Below are positions 2,911 through 49,271 of a DNA stretch of 64,000 nt, in pieces. A model generated the notes under the pieces. That model was not told the DNA's origin and did not search any database. It saw only the letters and a program-made list of their open reading frames with translations. Each line of letters opens with the position of its first letter. The stretch's first letter is position 1. The position numbers were made by a program, and so were the translations under genes. Origin of the DNA: Daphnia pulex (taxonomy: Eukaryota; Arthropoda; Branchiopoda; Diplostraca; Daphniidae); NCBI RefSeq assembly GCF_021134715.1, contig NC_060017.1, positions 5,084,001 to 5,148,000 on the forward strand, given 5' to 3'.

Positions 2911-4893
2911 CTATGAAATGCTTGTCGAATCGAAGGTTTTGAAAGGTGTTACTGAAACATTTTGTAAAATATCTGGTTTACGTTGGATTTTTTCAGTAAA
3001 ATCAGTAAACAATTTAACATTACTTTTTACTTCCTCCGCGTTCGAAAGTAGAAAGCGGGCATAGCGCGCAGCGATATTGTTTGATTTGGATCCGGGCACC
3101 AAGGAACCATCAAGTAAAACTTGAAAATTGCCCAAGTTTCTTTCACTTTTTCTAATTGTTTCTCTGAAAGGAAAATGAAACGGTATGTTCGTAAGTAACT
3201 ATAAGCACTGTCTGAAAACAAACATAGTATACTCCCAACGTTTTGTGAAATAAAAAAGATGTGAATACCTACCTCTATTGCTAAACCTTTTTATATAAGA
3301 TCTCGTACTCAAAGAAACAATAATGGCAAAATAGTAATAAAAACCTATAGACAAAATTTGCTTACCTGAGGAGTGCTCTAATATCTTTTAATCTCTTAAT
3401 TTGATCTTCAATACTTTTATCAAATGCGTTCGCAGGAAAACTTGGTGGAGTACTGGTTTCTATTGGAATAAATATTGGGTCAATTAGATCTATATTCCTT
3501 AAAAAGACAACAGCAGATTATTTAAAGATGGTTCATTTCGAATAATCAACATTGTTATAATAGTTTGTCTTAAGCACACACACGTTATTGTTAATTTTCC
3601 TATTAGAAGGAAGGATATTAACGCAAATTTCTTAAATAAATGTTGAGTTTGAATATCGCCATTGGCATGATTAGTATTTTTTGTGACGAATGAAGTCGTA
3701 TGAAAAGGAAAGTATTAATGTTCTGCTAGTTAAAGGTTAGTGTTTTACCAGTCGTGGTTTCTATTGGAATAGCCGATTCGGTAGTTAAAGTTATTTTCAT
3801 GTCATCAGTGATCGGAACGTCATCCATATCCGTTGTTTTTTCTTCTGAAGCCGGATTTTTTGCTGAAGGTACTACTGGGACCGCTTCAATTGAAAGATCG
3901 TCAAACAGAGTTCCGGCAGGCGGTTCAACAGCCACAAATGTCGTTTCCAGAACCGGAATAGTCGATTCGATAGGTACCGAAGTTAGTTCAGCAGCCGGAA
4001 TACTCACTTGTTTCGGGGCAACAGTTACAATCATTTCCAGAGCGTCCAGAGCTCCCGAGGAAAGATATACATTACTTATTGTAGAAATTGAGGTCAATGT
4101 TTCTCCATCTGCTCTTTCTGCTGGTTCTGACGACGGAATAATTTCACCGGCTGTAGTCGCTTCATTAATCGAATTTTTCAGTGTGTCGACAGTCGGTTGG
4201 TCGGTCAGAATTGACGTTTCCGCAGCCAGAGTTGTTGATTCCGTACTGGGATTCACTGCCCAGACTGTAAAAGTGGGATCACCTGTGGAAACCGAGAGCG
4301 TGCTGGGCACTTCTGTTGTTGTAGCGGTTTCTTCGGAAGTTGTTGTCAATTCAGCAATAGTTGTCATGGGTGCAGATGGAATTTCTGCGGCCGGAGTTAT
4401 TTCATCTGTAGACACATCAGCAGTTGGATTCGCTATCTCCGTGCTGATGGTAGAGACAGAATCAATCTAGCGGGGAAAAGGAGATAGCTATGCTTTACAC
4501 TTGTGTGTCTAGTCTGTCTATTATAAACACTATAGGCTACCTCTCGTTTTTGGCGGCTCAATCCAATCGACAGGTGCCTTAAAAAAATATTCAGTAATAA
4601 ATGAAATAAGACAAACATTCTAACGTCATACGTATCTCATAAGATTAAGGTTCCGTTTACTATTAAAATCTTTATAATAGTTAGAATAAAATGTACAATA
4701 CCGATTCTTTGGATGTTCCCCTAATGTCTGAATGACGAATTTCAGTTTGTCAAATTCAATTTTAGAAGCGGATGCGATCGCAAAAAGCGATATGAAAAAA
4801 ACGAGCTGTAAATAAAATAGGATTAGTTTTCACACTGTCTCTAAAAATGTAGGAACAAACATTTGCTGGATATATAATTACCAAAAGCTTCAT
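2911..4893 (-). CDS. Secreted Thr/Ser-rich (mucin-like) protein
   Basis: There are six exons: 4893-4882, 4805-4702, 4577-4541, 4466-3749, 3459-3366 and 3163-2911. All junctions are in phase, giving about 405 aa. The first residues (MKLLLVFFISLFAIASA) form a clear signal peptide. A furin-like RQKR site follows near residue 49. Residues about 52-290 come from one large exon and are extremely rich in Thr, Ser, Glu, Pro and Val, with degenerate repeats of the type TTTE, ESTIP and AAE. This is a composition typical of O-glycosylated mucin-like spacers. The C-terminal about 115 residues are of ordinary composition, with Lys/Arg/Asp-rich helical stretches. I recognise no catalytic domain and the product is probably extracellular. 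The 3' end is less certain: a stop at 2911 closes the frame, but alternative splicing into 2780-2870 cannot be excluded. No homolog name is offered. Confidence 0.7.
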
Positions 4894-15839: not shown

Positions 15840-18800
15840 TTAACTGAAACCAAGCTGATTGGGGTCTTGTGCAGCAGCGACTTGTGGGAAGGCTCGGAAA
15901 GCGAAAGCGCATTGCACCTTACATACGTGATCGTTCAAAATTGCGGCCGGGCTGAATGTCTGCGCTAATTGGAAACAGTTGACCACCTTCAATGACTGGC
16001 AAATAGGCTGTAAAATAAACGTTACACTGTTAATTTACGATTCATTCATGACTTAATTATCGTAAATTTACCCCTTCTCTTGTGCAGGTACACATGACAC
16101 AAGGTGAAATCCGATCAGCCTTTCCAACTTCGATGTTGGTCGATCCAACTGTGCAAGAGACGCGTTCCTTCCACAGTTCCAAATCAATCGATGGCAAAGA
16201 TCGACAAGGTACGCGTGGATTCCTGTTACAAAAAACGAAAATTAGATTATTCAATTTTTGTTTAAGAAGAACTTAAAGCTAAGCACTTACAAAAATGGTT
16301 CGCTTTGATCGAAAGCTGATCGTTGTGTAGTGTCGATTCCGTCAGAGTTATCACATATCAACTTGGACACCGTAGCTTTACGAATCTCTGCCAACTGAGC
16401 CTCAGTGAAACGGATCAATGGATCACCGTTTTCGTACCTGTCAAAATTCAAGGAATATTCAAAACCCTGCACTGAATAAGAGATGAATAAATAGAGCTCA
16501 CCAGAAACGATCGCATTTTCGCAGTTGACGGAACTGCATGGCAATAATGCAAGCGAAAGTAGGACCGACAAGACCACCGTGCAAGGAAGTCTCAGCCAAA
16601 CCGCCGGGGAAAAGGTCAATGTCGTCGACGTGCTCGTACGTCTGCTTCAAACGGGTAATGATTTCTGGCGTGACCTCGCGCGACAAATCTTCAAAGGTCC
16701 TGGCACGTTTCAGATTACATAGAGCACGATAATCGTTGTATGGACGGATGCCATGATCGCGAGCTCTTTGAATATTCAGGGCCGCCAGATCCAATCCAGA
16801 GAAGGGTTTGGTTTTCTCTTCGAACAAGTGGTTTGTAACTTCATGAGTAATAAACTGATCCATCGTTTCCATGGAAGTTCCCAACATGCCACGCATAAGA
16901 TCGTCGATCATACCAACTTGATAGATGACATCTGAAAATTCACAAAGAGTTTAGATGACAAGTAATTTTTGATCAAATGGAAATAAGTTTTACCAGGATT
17001 CATGAACACATCGCGCAATTTAACGTTCTGTTTACGATCCACAAAATTAGCTCCCATGCGCTTAAATTGTTCTTTCAGCAACGAGTGTCCGAAGCGGAAG
17101 GCCGCAGAAGCGAATTCGGTAAAGACGGTGGGATTGCAGGTGGCATCGTATCCTGTTAATTAAACGAAAAGTTGTAAATTTGTTTCACAAATCGATTCAC
17201 AATATTCCTACCATTGTAATATCCTTCGGTGAGGACTTTAAGATCGTAAAGCTGGACGGCATTCCATCCGAGAACGCGTGGCAGGAATTCGTTGTAAGAC
17301 ATGTGTTGAAATTCGGCGCCCATAATGCGTCGACCGTTTTGGAACAGCTGTTCGTCGTTCCAGTGAGGATTGATCTTGGCCAATTCGGTAACAATTCTGT
17401 TGTGTTCTCTCATGAACATGGTATGGATTGAGGTCAAACCCGGTTGTTCGCTGGCTCGTGTATCTCCTGCACATAAAAAAAAATAATCAGATTTGATTGT
17501 TGAATAAATCAAATTTTATAAAAAAAAGCGGAAAGATTTTACCTCCTGTGAAGCAGACGCCGGATGGGGATTTGCATTCAAGATGTTCGGAAGTTAGCGG
17601 CAAGAGATCCTTTCCGCGAATCGGGTGACGGGTTGAGTTCATTCTGCCTCCGACAAAGGCACGCAACTTGCGCATTTCGCAAACGTCACTGCCGTAGGTG
17701 TGCGATCCATCGACAAAGGCAGTCACTTGATTCAGCTGCTCACGGTGACCTGAATAAAAAGGAGGCAATGAGTTTCCATTCAATAACCTATGAAATGGTA
17801 TGTAAACAAAATAAGGCTGTACCAAGAGTCAGCTGTCCAGGTAAAGATCTGGTGAATGGAATACATTTTGGACGACCAGTAGACCGGTCAATATGAGGAA
17901 ACCAGGGATCGTTGGGAGGTACAGAAATTGGGGCACATTCCGGATGAACTGTTTTGGCTGAGTCGCAGCTGTTGCAGTCGATAATGGAGCCACCGAAACC
18001 GCGGTTGACTGGTGTGAATGTCAAGTCGTGATCCAGCAACTGGGCGTACTGCATGACCATGAGAGAATAGCGGGTGTGTGGGGCACTGACGTCATTGTGA
18101 ATGTTGGCCGAAATCATTCGAGCGCTGGGTAGCGGACGACCCGAAACGGCAGTGGCACGCATAGTGGAGAGTCCTAAAATAAATTATTAGAAAGATATAG
18201 ATGGAATGCGATAACAAAAGTGAACCGGCACATTTTTTACCATCTTCATATTTGGGTGGTAAAAGGCGTACGAACGCCCTCAAAGATTTGCCCAATTCGG
18301 GGAAATTGAGATTGTTACACCAGCCGGTCATGGTGCGGAATTTGCTGGTGTGATCACAGGGCAGCGTCTGTTCGTCACACTGGAACACCTTGGGAATATC
18401 GACGACTTCACTGACGTCAATATTGGGTAGCACTTTCATTAGTTCCTGAAGAGTGGACGGCTGAGGTTGCGATTCAACATCCTTTTGATTGACCCTGGAT
18501 ATTTTTAAAAAGGTGAATTAAAATTCGCTGCTTAATTTAAAAGGGGGGATAAAATGAATCAACTTACAGATTGAGGAAACTATTGACGAAGCGCTTTGAA
18601 GCAAACTGGAGGACACGTGAAATGTTGGCGATGGCACTCGCTTGACGTTTGGGTCGGCTGAAGCTGAAAGCTGTGCCCACTGCAGATTTGGGATCAGCTC
18701 CTTTGCCTGGTGAAAGAAGTAACAAGACCATTGAAATTTTCGTTACAGTTACAGCAACTGTGTGATCATTCGACAATTGATCATGCATAATCTGTTCCAT

Positions 18801-21800
18801 GCTCTCCGTGCGTGGATGCACAGAGAAGCCAGGCCAGCCGATTGGCCCAGTCATTTTTTTTTTCCTTGATCAAAAGTCTTATTTTTTTAAAAATATTATT
18901 TAAACATATAAACAAGAAACACTTTGAAAGATCAAATGATTAACAAAATCAGCAACACACCACCGCTTTCCTAGCATCCCATGCATTTCCACATCCGTTT
19001 CGTGACCCGGTGTAAAACCAAATTAGAGTGTTTTCCTTTCACACACAGAGTTATATTGCATAGGTTACGATTTGCCCAGTTCAGTCACGCAGTTGGGGTA
19101 TGTGAATGGCGAAAATACAAGCGTCAAAGCGTTTTTGTTGTTGTGTGGGATGAGGGTTTTTTTTTTGTGTTTTTGGATTCCGGAAAGGAGAGGTGAGTGG
19201 AGGAGTGCGTCCCCAGCGTCAGGCGAGGTGGGGAGGGAACTTACGTTGACTCTCGTAATCGGCCAACAAGCCGTTCACGTGATGAGCTACCCGGGCCGAG
19301 TCTTGAAGCACGTCCACTGCCTCTCGTTTCCGTGGTCCGTACAAGTCAGTCTCAACGTCGCTTTCATCATAGTTGGCCAGCAGCAGGTTCAGGAGGTGCT
19401 GGTCGAGGTTATACTGATTGAGCACCTGCTGCCCGCGATGGCGGGGTGGGTCGAAGCTCTGCCGTTCCAGGAATTCGCCATCAAAGTGGTGATGGTGGTG
19501 ATCGTCGTGAAAGTCGTGCTGGTGATCAGTACGGAGTCTAGGGAAGATGAGCGGGGCCAGCCAAGCTCTCAGGGAAGGATGAATGGTTGTTAGGATGGTT
19601 TGGGGGGACATTTGGCGGCGGTGGAGCGGTGCCGGTGTTACCAGCGAGTGCAAAGTTAGGTAGTTGGCCGTCTTGTCAGTTTTGTGATTGGCAGTTCGGG
19701 TCCAGGCACTCAAGTTCGTTATGGGGTTGAAGTGTGAAATCTGTCTCTTGGGTCGAGTAGAAGCAGCAGCAGCAGCTGTGTAGTCAGTTACACACACAAG
19801 TCTCGTCATTGTTTTCAACGGTAACCGTTTGGTTCGTTTATGCGTCTCGTCATTTTTTACGTAAAAGCAATCGTGTCTACTGTACGAGCTTCATTTTCAG
19901 GCTCAGAGTCTTTCAAGGTAAAACACTTACCAGCTGTCAGTTGTAGGGTTTCTTCCAAGGTCAGGTAGTCCTCGGCTTCTCGTTTAGCCCGCACCACAGA
20001 CTCTTCCAGCAACGTTTCCGGAATAACAAAATGCGGGGAGGCCGTCTTCCAGGCGCCAAGGTCCATTTTAGGGATGACTCCGTCGTGGCAAGACATGTCA
20101 GCGTTTCTTGAGAAGCAAAACAAAACCGGATTGGATGAGAAAATGAAATTCCAAAACCCACCAGCCAGTAGAATAATTACAAGAAAGGATCGTTGATCAA
20201 GAAGACGCGTGGTTGGATTTGATCGATGGAATCGCTGTTGTCGCAAACCAAGCGAGCCAGGGAAACTTTCCTGATGGCATGAAGTTGATCTGCATTTGAT
20301 GTAAAATGAATTAACAACCACTTTGATTTAATGATTGAAAATGAATTTACCTTTGGTGAAAGATGAAGGAGGAAGTTCGTTCTCATACCAGTAGCGATCA
20401 CCTCGTCTCAGATAATGGAACTGACGTCCGATCAGGCAGCCAAGAGTCCGACCGACCACAGCACCAGCATTGGGGGTTTCAGCCAATCCACCGGTGAACA
20501 AATCAATGTCGTTGATGTGTCGATAGATGCTCTTCAAAGTGGCGATCGTGGCACCGTTCATCACATCGCTAAGTTGGTCAAAAGTCGTGACAGCAGGAAG
20601 ACCGCAGAACTCACGCCACTTGATGTAGCCCGGAATACCGTGATCACGGCCGTGTTGGATAATTTGAGCAGCCAAATCCAATCCAGCGGCTGATATTTCA
20701 AAAAGAAAACAATTCGTTAGAGCCCATCAATGTCGAGAAAGATTTCGGTACAACTTACTTCCGGGTTTTTCCTGGAACATGTGGTTGGTCATGACATCGT
20801 TGATGGATGGATCTTCAGATTGCGAAAGGGTTCGGGCAAGGCCTTCGATGATTTCATCTAATCCATTTGGTTCGTACAGTTCGAAAGGAGCGTAAAAGCT
20901 GGAGCCCATCTTTTGTTCGGAGATTTTACGGCCATTGCGGTAGAGGCCCATCTTTTTTGGCAAAAGCGAAGCGACAAAGCGAAGAGCTGAAGCCGCAACT
21001 GAATTGGCAACGCCAGGATTGATGTTGATATCGTATCCAGTGAAATAACCGCTGAATTCCGGCTCAAGTCCATATTTCTCCATGATGGTCTGACCGAGAA
21101 TGACTGGCAAGAATTCGGAATAAGTGATGTGCTGCATCTCGGCGCCGACGATCCGGCGGGCTTCCTGGAACAGCGTCTCGTCTGACCAATGCGAATTGAT
21201 CACGGCCAATTCCTCTGCCAAGCGATTGTGTTCACGGATCAAAATAACGTGAAGGGCCGTTAGTTCCGTATGCTCGTTAACTCGAACATCTCCGGCTTTG
21301 AAGCACCTATAAAAGAAAAGTATCAAAAAATTAATAGGCATTATTGAGAAAGCGCAATAAAACTGAAGGAGAGAGTTACAAGCCTCTATATAGTTTCCAT
21401 TTCATATCATATCGCATGTGAAAGTATTAGGTGAAAGGCTTTCACTTCCTCAGAAAATCATAATGCTGCTATAAGAATTCTTTCTTATGAATTCTCACAC
21501 CTACTTTTATAGTCTGCGCTTCTCCATTAAATAAAATCGTGGGAGGAAATTCAAGCTGCTACTCTCTCTCCTGCTCCCGAGTGCATCAACAACCCCAGCA
21601 GTTGCTGCACCATGTTTCGGCTATATTTGATACTTTCGAGACTCACTTGACATCCTTATTTTTGGTGTTGCAGTCGATGATGTTGTCGTCGGGAGGCAAA
21701 AGTCCTTTGGTCGTGCCAGCAGGGCCGGGCTGAGTTTTCATTAGGCCGGCACGGAAGAGGCGCAAGTCGTTGGCCTCCTCGACCGAGCTGCCGTAGATGG

Positions 21801-24358
21801 TCGATCCGTCCATAAAACTCGTGACCTGGTTAATTTGCTCACGAGGGCCGAGCGTGCAGCCGACTCTGGGGGCCGTTCCCGATCTGACGTACTCTTGGCA
21901 TTTGATGTTGATTTGACCGTTGACAGGATCCGTGTCTGGCAGCCGGATTGGGTAGCATTCGGGATGAAATTCGTGCAAATTCACGCCGCAACACCTGAGG
22001 CGCTGACCCAGAAAACCTGGAAATAAACAAACCGAGTGAGTTGCCGGCCACGTTGAGAAAACACTGCAAGAGACTTGGACGCAAGTCAATGGAGGCCAAT
22101 CCTCCGAGATACGAAGAGAAAGTTGCCCAACACCAACAACAGCGTTCATCGTGACGTGGCGGAAAAAGCAGAAACATTTAGAAGAGGGGTGAGGAAGGAG
22201 GAGAGGGGGGTTGAGGGTATATCGGAATACCACGCACGGTGGTTCACCAACTAGAGAAGAGAAAACTATAAACTCACCAGCCATTTGTGGTGTGTGGGAG
22301 ATGTCGTTGTGCACCAGTTGTCCCCAGATGGCCGCCATGGCCGTTAGATGAAGATGTGGATTGTCCACGTCTTTGTGGACGGCTAGGGAAATATCTCGGG
22401 CGCTGGGCAGGAATGTTCCATCACTGGCCTGACGGGGAATGCTCACACCTGTGCTCATTGAGGACACACAACACACATTTGTTATTCATCCATCAGAAAC
22501 TCAATTTCTTGTCCACCACCAAATGTCGACACAACGTCCCAACCAAGTTGGAAAAATGAATAATTACGGGCGGCAGGTTCTTTCTTGGTCATAAAATAGA
22601 TTAAAGTCAATCATTTTAAATTGAATTTTACCTTCAGCTGAATTTTGAATGTCACCATTCCATTTTGCTTCTTATATTAAACTTCTCATTTTTCAAACAA
22701 AACAAAAGCAGACGAACCTTTTGTCTTTGATGAATCGAAACTATTAAAAATCGTCCCCCACCCCCCTGCGCGCTTGATACCCGCTGAATTATTCTGGATT
22801 ATTACGGGTATTCAAAAATAGTTTCGTTTCAACAAGTTCCACAAAGCCGCTCTACCACAGACAAGACAAAAGTCAAAAGACAAGACAAGACAAAAGTAAA
22901 AAAAAAATTTGCACGAAACCCGCGCAAGACAATTGACCAAAACCGCACACAATAAGACCCTCCAAGACCTTCTTGGAAGCCAAGAGTGAATTATCATCGT
23001 CAACTATACTTTGCTAATTTCTTACCGTCACTGTAATCGGGTGGGAGGAACCGCAGGTAGCGGGTGTTGGCGTTTCCCCAGCGCGGGTTCTGAACGTTGT
23101 TGCAATAACCGTTGTAGGCTCGGTATTTGCGCGGTTGGCACGGGAAATCCACTTCGAGTGGGCACTGATCTGCCAATACCGTGTTGCGGACGTCCATGGT
23201 CGGCAGGGCGAAGGTGATCTGCTCCTTGGTCAATTTTAATCTGCGCGTCCGTCAAAAAGAAAATGAAAGTCACAATCAGCCTCTGTTGACGGATCGTCGG
23301 AGCGTTTCCACAGAAACGTGATATAGTTACCCTTGAGCAAAGTATTTGGTCGCCTCTTCGGCCATCAGGGCGATGCGAGAGATGTTTTTAGCCACAACCT
23401 TGGTCTTGTGAGAGGCCGCCATAAACCACGCAGCGCTTGACGTTTGCAGTCGGCTATCTGCAAGAGGCGGAAACAATCAAACATTTACACATTTTCCGTC
23501 GTCAACTGGAATTAGCTTAGATATTTGGGTTTCTTTTATATTTTTAATTGAGCGAATCGTCGAATCCTTGGGCCTGAAACCCGAATGACTTCCGTTTCAC
23601 ACGCTCATTGAGTTCTCCAAGACAACCCTGAAAACTCATTTCGAATGCAGCGCAGAATAATGATAAAGAGGTCGCCAAAAAATGGTTGCGCTGCGGCATT
23701 CCAAATGTTTGCGCAAGCGAAATCAACAACCGAGAGGAAAAGAGAAAACGACCCGCGCTACTAGAGCGACTAGAATCTATCGAACTGGACACACGGAGAA
23801 GGGAAAAGCCAGAAAATGATGACAATGCCCAATAGACTAAGACACCGGTATTTAATTAGAAATTAAAAAGCAAAAAAAAAAAAGGAAAACTCGGACGCAT
23901 CGCGTCTAAGTATTACGATGGCCCATTCAGACAGCAGCGGAGAGCTTTCCCCTGTCGACTTTCACGCGTGTCACGGATTGCAGGGGATTCATCGGGAAAC
24001 GGGCCAAAAGCTTACCATTGCTGGCCAGGAGAGTGGGCTCGAAATCGTCGAAACGGGCGGCGATGGCGGCGGCCGCCTGGTTGGCGTAAGTCGTCAAGTC
24101 CTGCACGTTGAAATGGGGCATCGCCACCCTGACCTTTTCGTTGATCGGCTCAATTTCGATGGCCGGTTTCAAGTGCTGCGTCTTGTGCTTGACGAGCGTG
24201 TCCCTCCGTGAACGCACCGACTGTTGCTGGGCATCGATGATGACTTTGTCGGTGAAGCCGGACTCGAAGTGGATGGCATGGCAGACGCAGGTGAGCAGCC
24301 AGATGACCACCAGAAATTGGGCTAATGGAAAGCAGTAGCGCATCTCTTTCGGCGCCAT
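15840..24358 (-). CDS. Secreted tandem-domain animal haem peroxidase
   Basis: There are twenty exons: 24358-24016, 23457-23331, 23240-23026, 22448-22278, 22016-21647, 21306-20759, 20689-20351, 20289-20181, 20106-19931, 19775-19245, 18706-18568, 18494-18241, 18173-17823, 17749-17543, 17466-17212, 17152-16994, 16931-16502, 16437-16291, 16222-16072 and 16007-15840. All phases match, giving about 1729 aa. An N-terminal hydrophobic segment ([14 protein letters not shown]) acts as signal peptide. Peroxidase domain 1 spans about residues 175-760, a linker 760-1045, domain 2 about 1050-1650, and a short Cys-rich VWC-like tail 1670-1710 (CTCTREGPICQSL). Domain 2 has distal DHD (H1156), catalytic R1313 in MFMREHNR, proximal H1401 in FRFGHS and the Asn of [10 protein letters not shown]. 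Domain 1 keeps R433 (ILIREHNR) but reads QLVHNDI, RFVAS and [10 protein letters not shown] at the His, His and Asn sites. It likely oxidises halides or phenols outside the cell. The join between exons 9 and 10 is the least certain; two separate genes are the alternative. Confidence 0.88.
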
Positions 24359-44200: not shown

Positions 44201-45088
44201 TTACTTTGTCTCACCGAGAACATGTTTGACGTTTGGCTGCGGAGTGATGGTATTGTACCAGCGCAAGACGTTAGATGATTTCGAACGAGTGGCAGCGTCC
44301 ATCACACGATCGAAAACCGGAACCAGTGTGCAGACAACGGATACATCAGCGAGAGTTACAGTTTCGCCGACAAGGTAAGTGCGGGTCAGCAGAACTTTGT
44401 TCAAAACGTCCAAGTAGTGAAGAATTTCTTGTCGAGCGCGATTTTGCGACGGCTTAGCAGCAGCAGAGTTGTCTGTCAAAGCCAAGACGGCGGGCAGAAT
44501 TTCATGTTCGGCAAGATTAATCCATTGCAGAATTTGTGCTTCTTCGAGCGAGTCTTTTCCCTTCAAAGGCTTAGGTGCCAGAAATAGGGCGATCGAGGAT
44601 ATTCCCGAAATGGTGACATCTCCGGCAGACAGCGCAGGTAACTTTTGAATTATGCACAATCAATTCAGGAGAATTCAAATCGCGAAATTGACAATAACGT
44701 ACCTTATTTGTGATGAAAGTTGATGACGGTAGATCGGTCGAGACATTCAGTTTGATGTTAGCGTATTTGGCGGTAATCAAGGCGATATTCGTACGAATAT
44801 TTCCAGATTTCGAAAACAACGTTGGCCCGTCCACACGTTCAGTCCTGTTTAGGAGAAAGATTATCCGTCATACCCTTGAACTTTTGAACTGAATTTAAAA
44901 CTAGTTCTTCACATGCGAATCACATGGCGGGATAGGAGAAAACTGGGTTTCAGACAAGTAAGTTAATCTCATTCACTGGGAAGAATTTACCATAAATCAA
45001 TTGAAACCAAACCAACTTACCAGACGACATGCAGTTCAATGAGATAAAAAGTTGGAAAATGACATAGAATAATCAAGCACTCAAGCAT
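44201..45088 (-). CDS. EF1-gamma/ValRS-type GST-fold protein
   Basis: There are three exons, 45088-45021, 44844-44703 and 44641-44201, giving about 216 aa in phase. Residues about 28-75 resemble the thioredoxin-like half of EF1-gamma or the N-terminal domain of valyl-tRNA synthetase (GPTLFSKSGN, KLPALSAGDVTISG). The rest is the all-alpha GST C-domain with the signature LVGETVTLADVSVVCTLVP and the ending VLGETK, which matches VLGEVK where the EF1-gamma GST domain ends. The EF1-gamma conserved C-terminal domain and any synthetase core are absent. Such domains act as assembly scaffolds in translation complexes. The gene starts only 59 nt beyond the alanyl-tRNA synthetase stop on the same strand. 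The first exon (hydrophobic, MLECLIILCHF) is the weakest part. It was chosen because it is the only upstream ATG I found that gives the required phase. Confidence 0.72.

Positions 45089-45146: not shown

Positions 45147-49271
<4,125 letters not shown>

Follow-up and report, generated by a model that had tools for sequence, protein, structure and literature searches.

What becomes of a peroxidase domain that has lost its haem ligand while staying joined to a partner with a complete catalytic set? The question is raised by a gene in a stretch of the Daphnia pulex genome 64,000 nucleotides long (assembly GCF_021134715.1, contig NC_060017.1, positions 5,084,001 to 5,148,000), here called the window. 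This gene, gene A, encodes two animal haem peroxidase domains, the first of which carries other residues at key haem-site positions and the second of which is intact. Another gene elsewhere in the genome, gene B, shows losses at the same four sites of its first domain. Gene A is probably an arthropod double haem peroxidase of the DBLOX/DBLPX kind, in which a haem-free, cation-stabilised first domain would aid the assembly or positioning of the second.

Gene A lies on the minus strand (24358..15840) and comprises 20 coding exons, whose 19 introns are all of the GT-AG type and which together yield a single spliced frame of 1,729 codons plus one terminal stop. Rebuilding this chain recovered the spliced two-domain frame proposed in a sequence-only reading of the window, with all eight residues named there at the same numbers. 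The parts of the gene, in window positions, are as follows.

15840..24358, minus strand: whole coding span of gene A, from the ATG (24358) to the stop (15840) of the GT-AG exon chain.
24016..24358, minus strand: exon 1, with the start codon, a hydrophobic signal-like stretch at about residues 7-33 (hydropathy) and RSRR at residue 49 (motif list).
20025..23240, minus strand: domain 1, a putative pseudoperoxidase, about residues 157-768, in exons 3-8 and the start of exon 9 (PF03098 and myeloperoxidase alignment).
18570..20024, minus strand: linker, about residues 769-1022, in the end of exon 9 and exons 10 and 11, with no Cys and three RX[KR]R sites.
19245..19775, minus strand: exon 10, 531 nt, phase 1-1, with a poly-His run, a possible cassette.
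16144..18494, minus strand: domain 2, about residues 1023-1650, in exons 12-18 and part of exon 19, with D1155, H1156, R1297, E1300, H1401, N1484 and R1487.
15840..16143, minus strand: Cys-rich C-terminal tail (CVMCTC...), von Willebrand type C-like but under the Pfam cut-off.

In a whole-protein scan, PF03098 was the sole Pfam family above its cut-off, and leucine-rich repeats (LRR), immunoglobulin (Ig) domains, EF hands and an NADPH oxidase core did not reach theirs. The full protein matched this profile with 1313 bits in two stretches, the best of which covers profile positions 1-530, and domain 1 by itself scored 644.5 bits across positions 1-530 of 530. The two domains are 42% identical to each other (256/616 aligned positions), and an alignment with myeloperoxidase spans almost all of each. 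Domain 2 had no match in NCBIfam, and the tail reached 19.8 bits against PF23333 (E 7.8e-4), where the cut-off is 27. The only 19-residue Kyte-Doolittle windows at or above 1.6 fall at residues 7-33 (peak 2.06), a signal-like N-terminus that may be a signal peptide or an anchor.

In animal peroxidases, the proximal His is the haem iron ligand and the distal His acts as a proton shuttle. These and other positions were located in gene A by alignment with myeloperoxidase, for which we take the residue roles, the mature numbering (for example, R239 as the catalytic distal Arg) and the site assignment of the calcium loop as assumed. The positions of interest in domain 1 are these.

22306..22311, minus strand: H275 and N276, at the positions of the ester Asp and the distal His (myeloperoxidase alignment).
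20970..20972, minus strand: A521, at the position of the proximal haem-ligand His (myeloperoxidase alignment).
20661..20663, minus strand: I601, at the position of the proximal Asn (myeloperoxidase alignment).
21273..21284, minus strand: R417 (catalytic distal Arg position) and E420 (ester Glu position), both retained (myeloperoxidase alignment).
21802..21822, minus strand: calcium loop T351-S-F-M-D355-G-S357, retained along with D277 (alignments).

Thus, the four losses that the sequence-only reading had described in domain 1 are borne out by the alignment, as are its D1155/H1156, H1401 and proximal Asn (N1484) in domain 2, where R1297 and E1300 complete the catalytic set. One of its assignments fails. 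R433 and R1313, which it had taken for the distal Arg, both belong to the REHNR motif and are conserved but different residues; the catalytic Arg is instead R417 (in AGDVRVNEH) and R1297 (in GGDTRASEQ). Because the correct Arg is also retained in both domains, the conclusion drawn there about domain 1 stands.

The replacements in domain 1 can be set against 36 aligned rows of active peroxidases. A521 stands where all 36 have His, and N276 where 28 of the 30 rows that cover the column have His. H604 of domain 1 likewise replaces an Arg carried by 36/36 rows, and the Arg of the R417 column is present in 35/36. For N276 (AAC), H275 (CAC) and I601 (ATT), one substitution would be enough to restore a codon of the usual residue. 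The codon of A521 (GCT) is two substitutions from a His codon, and a single base error therefore cannot account for the loss of the proximal His. All of the calcium-loop residues (D277, T351, F353, D355 and S357) are present in domain 1, and they correspond to cation site 2 of DUOX1 (PMC7794343).

Gene B (locus L009) is a second double peroxidase, located on the minus strand of another contig (C7:10791500-10799500) and represented by a partial model of 12 exons that lacks the first exon or exons. At the distal site its first domain reads FVQNDIS, with Gln for the ester Asp and Asn for the distal His. At the proximal site it reads SFSLAML, with Leu for the proximal His, and EILMRGRDHG places Ile at the proximal Asn. 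The Arg-Glu site reads GDARVNES. The catalytic residues of its second domain are intact. The two first domains, D1a in gene A and D1b in gene B, both retain the calcium loop, and they agree in replacing the distal His by Asn and the proximal Asn by Ile; H275 and H604 of D1a are Gln and Arg in D1b. Gene B has no counterpart of exon 10 of gene A, and its C-terminal tail, rich in Pro and Gln, reached 16.6 bits against PF00093 (cut-off 27.6). Because an independent gene has losses at the same four sites, the loss in domain 1 is conserved. The proposal of the sequence-only reading that domain 1 should not work as a haem peroxidase is well supported by sequence, as the ligand His, the distal His, the ester Asp and the proximal Asn are lost in both genes.

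Other members of the family in this genome help to place these losses. A scan of the 133-Mb assembly (13 contigs) with PF03098 gave at least 154 exon-level matches, with 81 of 274 candidates scored, and 45 of 52 candidate places were examined. These loci are not equal to genes, as two of them (L022 and L034) each hold more than one, and their rows were chained from tblastn pieces rather than taken from full gene models. The proximal His is visible in 42 of the 44 loci other than gene B; of the remaining two, L050 is uncovered at that column and L045 is cyclooxygenase-like. The distal pair is less strict, with Thr, Asn or Ala in place of Asp in several loci, and many loci leave the pair uncovered. 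Some have Gln or Val for Glu. In the chains of L023 and L033 the distal His column holds a Gln that may be intron sequence, as a stop comes next. L045 was considered as a peroxidase without the proximal His, since its chained column holds Asn, and was rejected because its frames read, by eye, as cyclooxygenase-like with a YHWHP motif; under a different alignment setting the His of this motif falls in the proximal column. Two of these loci are worth recording in their own right: the cyclooxygenase-like gene itself (C9:9268500-9274500, minus strand), and L049 (C5:11198000-11201200), which in the chained alignment keeps DHD and the proximal His but carries Asn in the columns of both the catalytic Arg and the ester Glu. 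A search with exon 6 of gene A found no match among the viral contigs (viral_contigs), and among the genome contigs (genome_contigs) it found three bacterial loci, none useful as orthologs.

Despite the lost haem residues, much of domain 1 appears to be maintained. Conservation across the 36 active rows reached 90% or more in 85 columns. D1a keeps 76 of these and D1b 69, and the second domains, D2a and D2b, keep 84 each. Seven conserved Cys columns are all kept in both first domains. Both first domains have lost six conserved columns, four of which are the distal His, the proximal His with its preceding Gly, and the proximal Asn. The losses in D1a concentrate in a set of seven haem positions (4/7 versus 5/78 other columns; Fisher p 0.0019), as do those common to D1a and D1b (3/7 versus 3/78; Fisher p 0.0063), although these seven were chosen after the residues had been seen. 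The NG86 method gave nonsynonymous and synonymous divergences (dN and dS) of 0.60 and 2.34 for D1a and D1b, and a dN of 0.40 with undefined dS for D2a and D2b; because dS is saturated and YN00 returned no estimate for four of four pairs, dN/dS is only indicative. Pseudogenisation, which the sequence-only reading had named among the alternatives, is unlikely on the evidence of this genome, given that the frames are open in both genes, that 76 of 85 conserved columns are kept and that dN lies below the saturated dS.

The relationships among the domains suggest an old origin for this arrangement. The tree sample took the 37 of 44 loci with at least 330 residues, excluding L024-L026, L045 and L050-L052, which together with the four domains of the double genes made 41 rows. 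Dropping three rows then left 38: L022 and L034, whose chains each span multiple genes, and L032, which by its motifs and scores seems almost a duplicate of L029. In the maximum-likelihood tree, D1a and D1b form a clade with 100/100 support, as do D2a and D2b. The fused gene is therefore older than the split between genes A and B. The D1 and D2 clades are not sisters in this tree, although D1a and D2a have two intron positions in common, which fits an old internal duplication. D1a and D1b have four in common, though one of these is a column apart in the alignment, and intron phases in the linker and tail are common to both genes. Because the two first domains carry identical replacements at the distal His (Asn) and the proximal Asn (Ile), a single ancestral loss is favoured. 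The iron ligand, distal His, ester Asp and proximal Asn would then have been lost once, in the ancestor of both double genes, with other sites (Ala or Leu, His or Gln) drifting later.

The linker between the domains has features of its own. It contains no cysteine, and its three RX[KR]R sites, of the furin type, lie at residues 780, 807 and 994, with none inside either domain. This number exceeds expectation, as the shuffled mean was 0.19 and only 5 of 5000 shuffles reached three. With three such sites and no Cys in the linker, the halves could be cut apart. Exon 10, which contributes much of the linker, is more doubtful as coding sequence. Its used frame is weakly preferred by codon score (0.432 versus 0.352 and 0.214), a genome search found no second match, and its 531 nt lie between phase-1 introns, such that the frame is preserved with or without it. 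A lineage-specific cassette is one possibility, and a wrongly joined stretch is another. Long open frames occur on both strands of this region (19027-19593 on the plus strand, opposite 19219-19890 on the minus strand), along with the poly-His run.

We can now consider what domain 1 might do. The peroxidase homology domain of DUOX1 is missing the ligand His and shows no haem density, and mutations in its two putative cation sites prevent co-assembly (PMC7794343). This precedent, and the match of domain 1 residues to one of those sites, favour a cation-stabilised, haem-free structural partner. Gene A would produce one secreted or membrane-tethered protein, with a signal-like N-terminus followed by domain 1, the Cys-free linker, domain 2 and the Cys-rich tail. 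After the ancestral loss, domain 1 would have been retained as a folded, cation-binding structural partner. By analogy with DUOX, whose haem-free homology domain packs against its enzyme and helps to organise it, domain 1 may fold around calcium without haem and serve domain 2 as a built-in assembly or positioning module, and the furin-type sites might later separate the halves. The sequence-only reading had suggested that domain 1 may be a regulator, scaffold or substrate-binding module. A more elaborate version, which we put forward quite tentatively, has the mature enzyme consist of two chains. After cleavage of the linker by a convertase, haem-free domain 1 would stay bound to domain 2 as a dedicated subunit, dependent on calcium, and would control haem loading, secretion or access of substrate. 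Such a pseudoenzyme-enzyme pair, derived from a single fused gene, would have been maintained since before the gene duplication.

Several observations weigh against a maintained structural partner of this kind. Saturation of dS blunts the measure of constraint. The end branches of the first domains are longer than those of the second (0.41 versus 0.27 and 1.25 versus 0.52, or 1.5-fold and 2.4-fold), and D1b, a row marked as long, is missing an internal stretch along with 16 of the 85 conserved columns. The longer branches and the losses in D1b indicate that constraint on domain 1 is relaxed. By raw identity, moreover, D1a is no nearer to D1b (41.5%) than to D2a (42.2%). The furin-type sites do not recur in a matching place in gene B, whose partial model has one RVKR, at residue 695. 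Cleavage sites in PXDNL go unused, and inactive peroxidasin is cut less (PMC8533639). Finally, the authors of the DUOX1 work were unable to distinguish sodium from calcium at the cation sites (PMC7794343).

Among the other explanations, the one that fares best would make domain 1 a large propeptide or folding partner that is removed by proprotein convertases, leaving domain 2 alone, or a non-covalent pair, as the mature enzyme. The three sites in the Cys-free linker, with none within the domains, would suit this role, as would the RVKR that stands shortly ahead of the second domain in gene B, and furin processing has been demonstrated for peroxidasin (PMC8533639). However, one of the three sites falls in exon 10, itself weakly supported as coding sequence, and the differing positions in the two genes and the unused sites of PXDNL both speak against it. 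We regard this explanation as possible but doubtful.

Alternatively, domain 1 could be a decaying passenger, with only domain 2 having mattered after the fusion. The longer D1 branches and the eroded state of D1b are what such decay would produce. Yet both frames are still open although the two genes have diverged far enough for dS to be saturated, and both first domains keep most of the conserved columns, the calcium residues and all seven Cys columns. We consider a passenger unlikely.

It is less likely still that domain 1, though lacking the proximal His, retains some redox or lipid chemistry, or that H275, H604 or another residue serves as a substitute haem ligand. R417 and E420 are indeed kept, and both of these histidines are new in D1a. 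Neither is present in D1b, however, no His occupies the proximal site in either gene, and the peroxidase domain of DUOX1, similarly devoid of the ligand His, has no haem density. That the halves are separate neighbouring genes joined on paper is equally improbable: the frame entering exon 11 from upstream does contain Met codons and a brief hydrophobic stretch, which might provide an alternative start, but joined exons 10-12 hold no strongly hydrophobic stretch, the same fusion and intron phases recur in gene B on another contig, and a partial sequence of 3,186 nt from the salmon louse holds both domains in one open frame of 1,060 amino acids (PMC10579435). Kinship of domain 1 with DUOX, hinted at by a higher DUOX1 score for domain 1 (154.8 bits) than for domain 2 (113.7 bits), was set aside. 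The match to domain 1 is longer (query 41-583 versus 163-580), both domains and a two-row D1 profile score much better against myeloperoxidase, and Pfam detected no oxidase core.

With two genes in one genome that each pair a dead first domain with an intact second one, the function of domain 1 becomes directly testable. If it does control the maturation of domain 2, it would represent a pseudoenzyme regulator that evolved from its own partner. The excerpted literature on mosquito DBLOX and on the louse protein assigns no job to the first domain.

Elsewhere in the window, three features were recorded.

48204-48683, minus strand: exon of an alanyl-tRNA synthetase-like gene (PF01411).
44201-44659, minus strand: exon encoding the C-terminal domain of a glutathione S-transferase (PF00043).
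3726-4470: Ser/Thr-rich, mucin-like frame of 246 amino acids, with an equally long frame on the opposite strand; the minus-strand frame here had no Pfam match.

Some aspects of this system are already known. Double peroxidases occur in insects and copepods, and a first domain without haem sites has been described in the salmon louse. Within the open-licence literature as excerpted, we did not meet a second gene with a dead first domain in one genome, common replacement residues or linker sites. An animal haem peroxidase described as a pseudoenzyme was not found in that literature either, which is no proof of absence.

The louse protein, LsPxtl-1, is among the nearest known counterparts of gene A (PMC10579435). 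Its first domain lacks Prosite haem sites, its second has DHD, RxxE and GHS, and calcium sites are found in both, although InterPro placed the haem sites opposite to Prosite. The pattern of loss differs: the louse first domain has AHD and RxxH, keeping the distal His and losing Glu, whereas gene A has HND and RVNE, losing the His and keeping Glu. The sequence-only reading had held that an ortholog with both histidines in its first domain would count against it; LsPxtl-1 is not such a case, since its first domain keeps the distal His but the proximal GHS is reported for the second domain. The same account lists one uncharacterised two-domain protein each in D. magna and D. pulex (respectively 49.2% and 48.4% identical to the louse protein), reports that larvae died after moulting upon knockdown and, as excerpted, describes no second double gene and no linker sites.

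The DBLPX proteins of Myzus persicae (MpPxd14 and MpPxd23) have two domains, an N-terminal transmembrane segment and a C-terminal von Willebrand type C (VWC) domain, and MpPxd14 has 20 exons, as does gene A (PMC11673278). The VWC-like tail of gene A falls under the Pfam cut-off. DBLOX of Anopheles (AGAP008350), likewise named a double peroxidase, is expressed in oenocytes and is needed for lipoxin A4 synthesis in immune priming (PMC13043729, PMC9754258), though orthology with gene A is a lead only.

Further comparisons come from peroxidasins and dual oxidases. Peroxidasins are defined by LRR and Ig domains, neither of which was found in gene A by Pfam. Peroxidasin and PXDNL offer the likeness of a secreted peroxidase with convertase processing, and PXDNL has no measurable activity, but its changes lie at Gln and Asp positions and it has no fused active domain (PMC8533639). 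Dual oxidases fuse the peroxidase fold to an NADPH oxidase, which Pfam does not detect in gene A. Even so, they exhibit the combination proposed for domain 1, namely a peroxidase fold without the haem-ligand His that keeps its cation sites and has a structural role (PMC7794343; fly Duox, PMC4654585).

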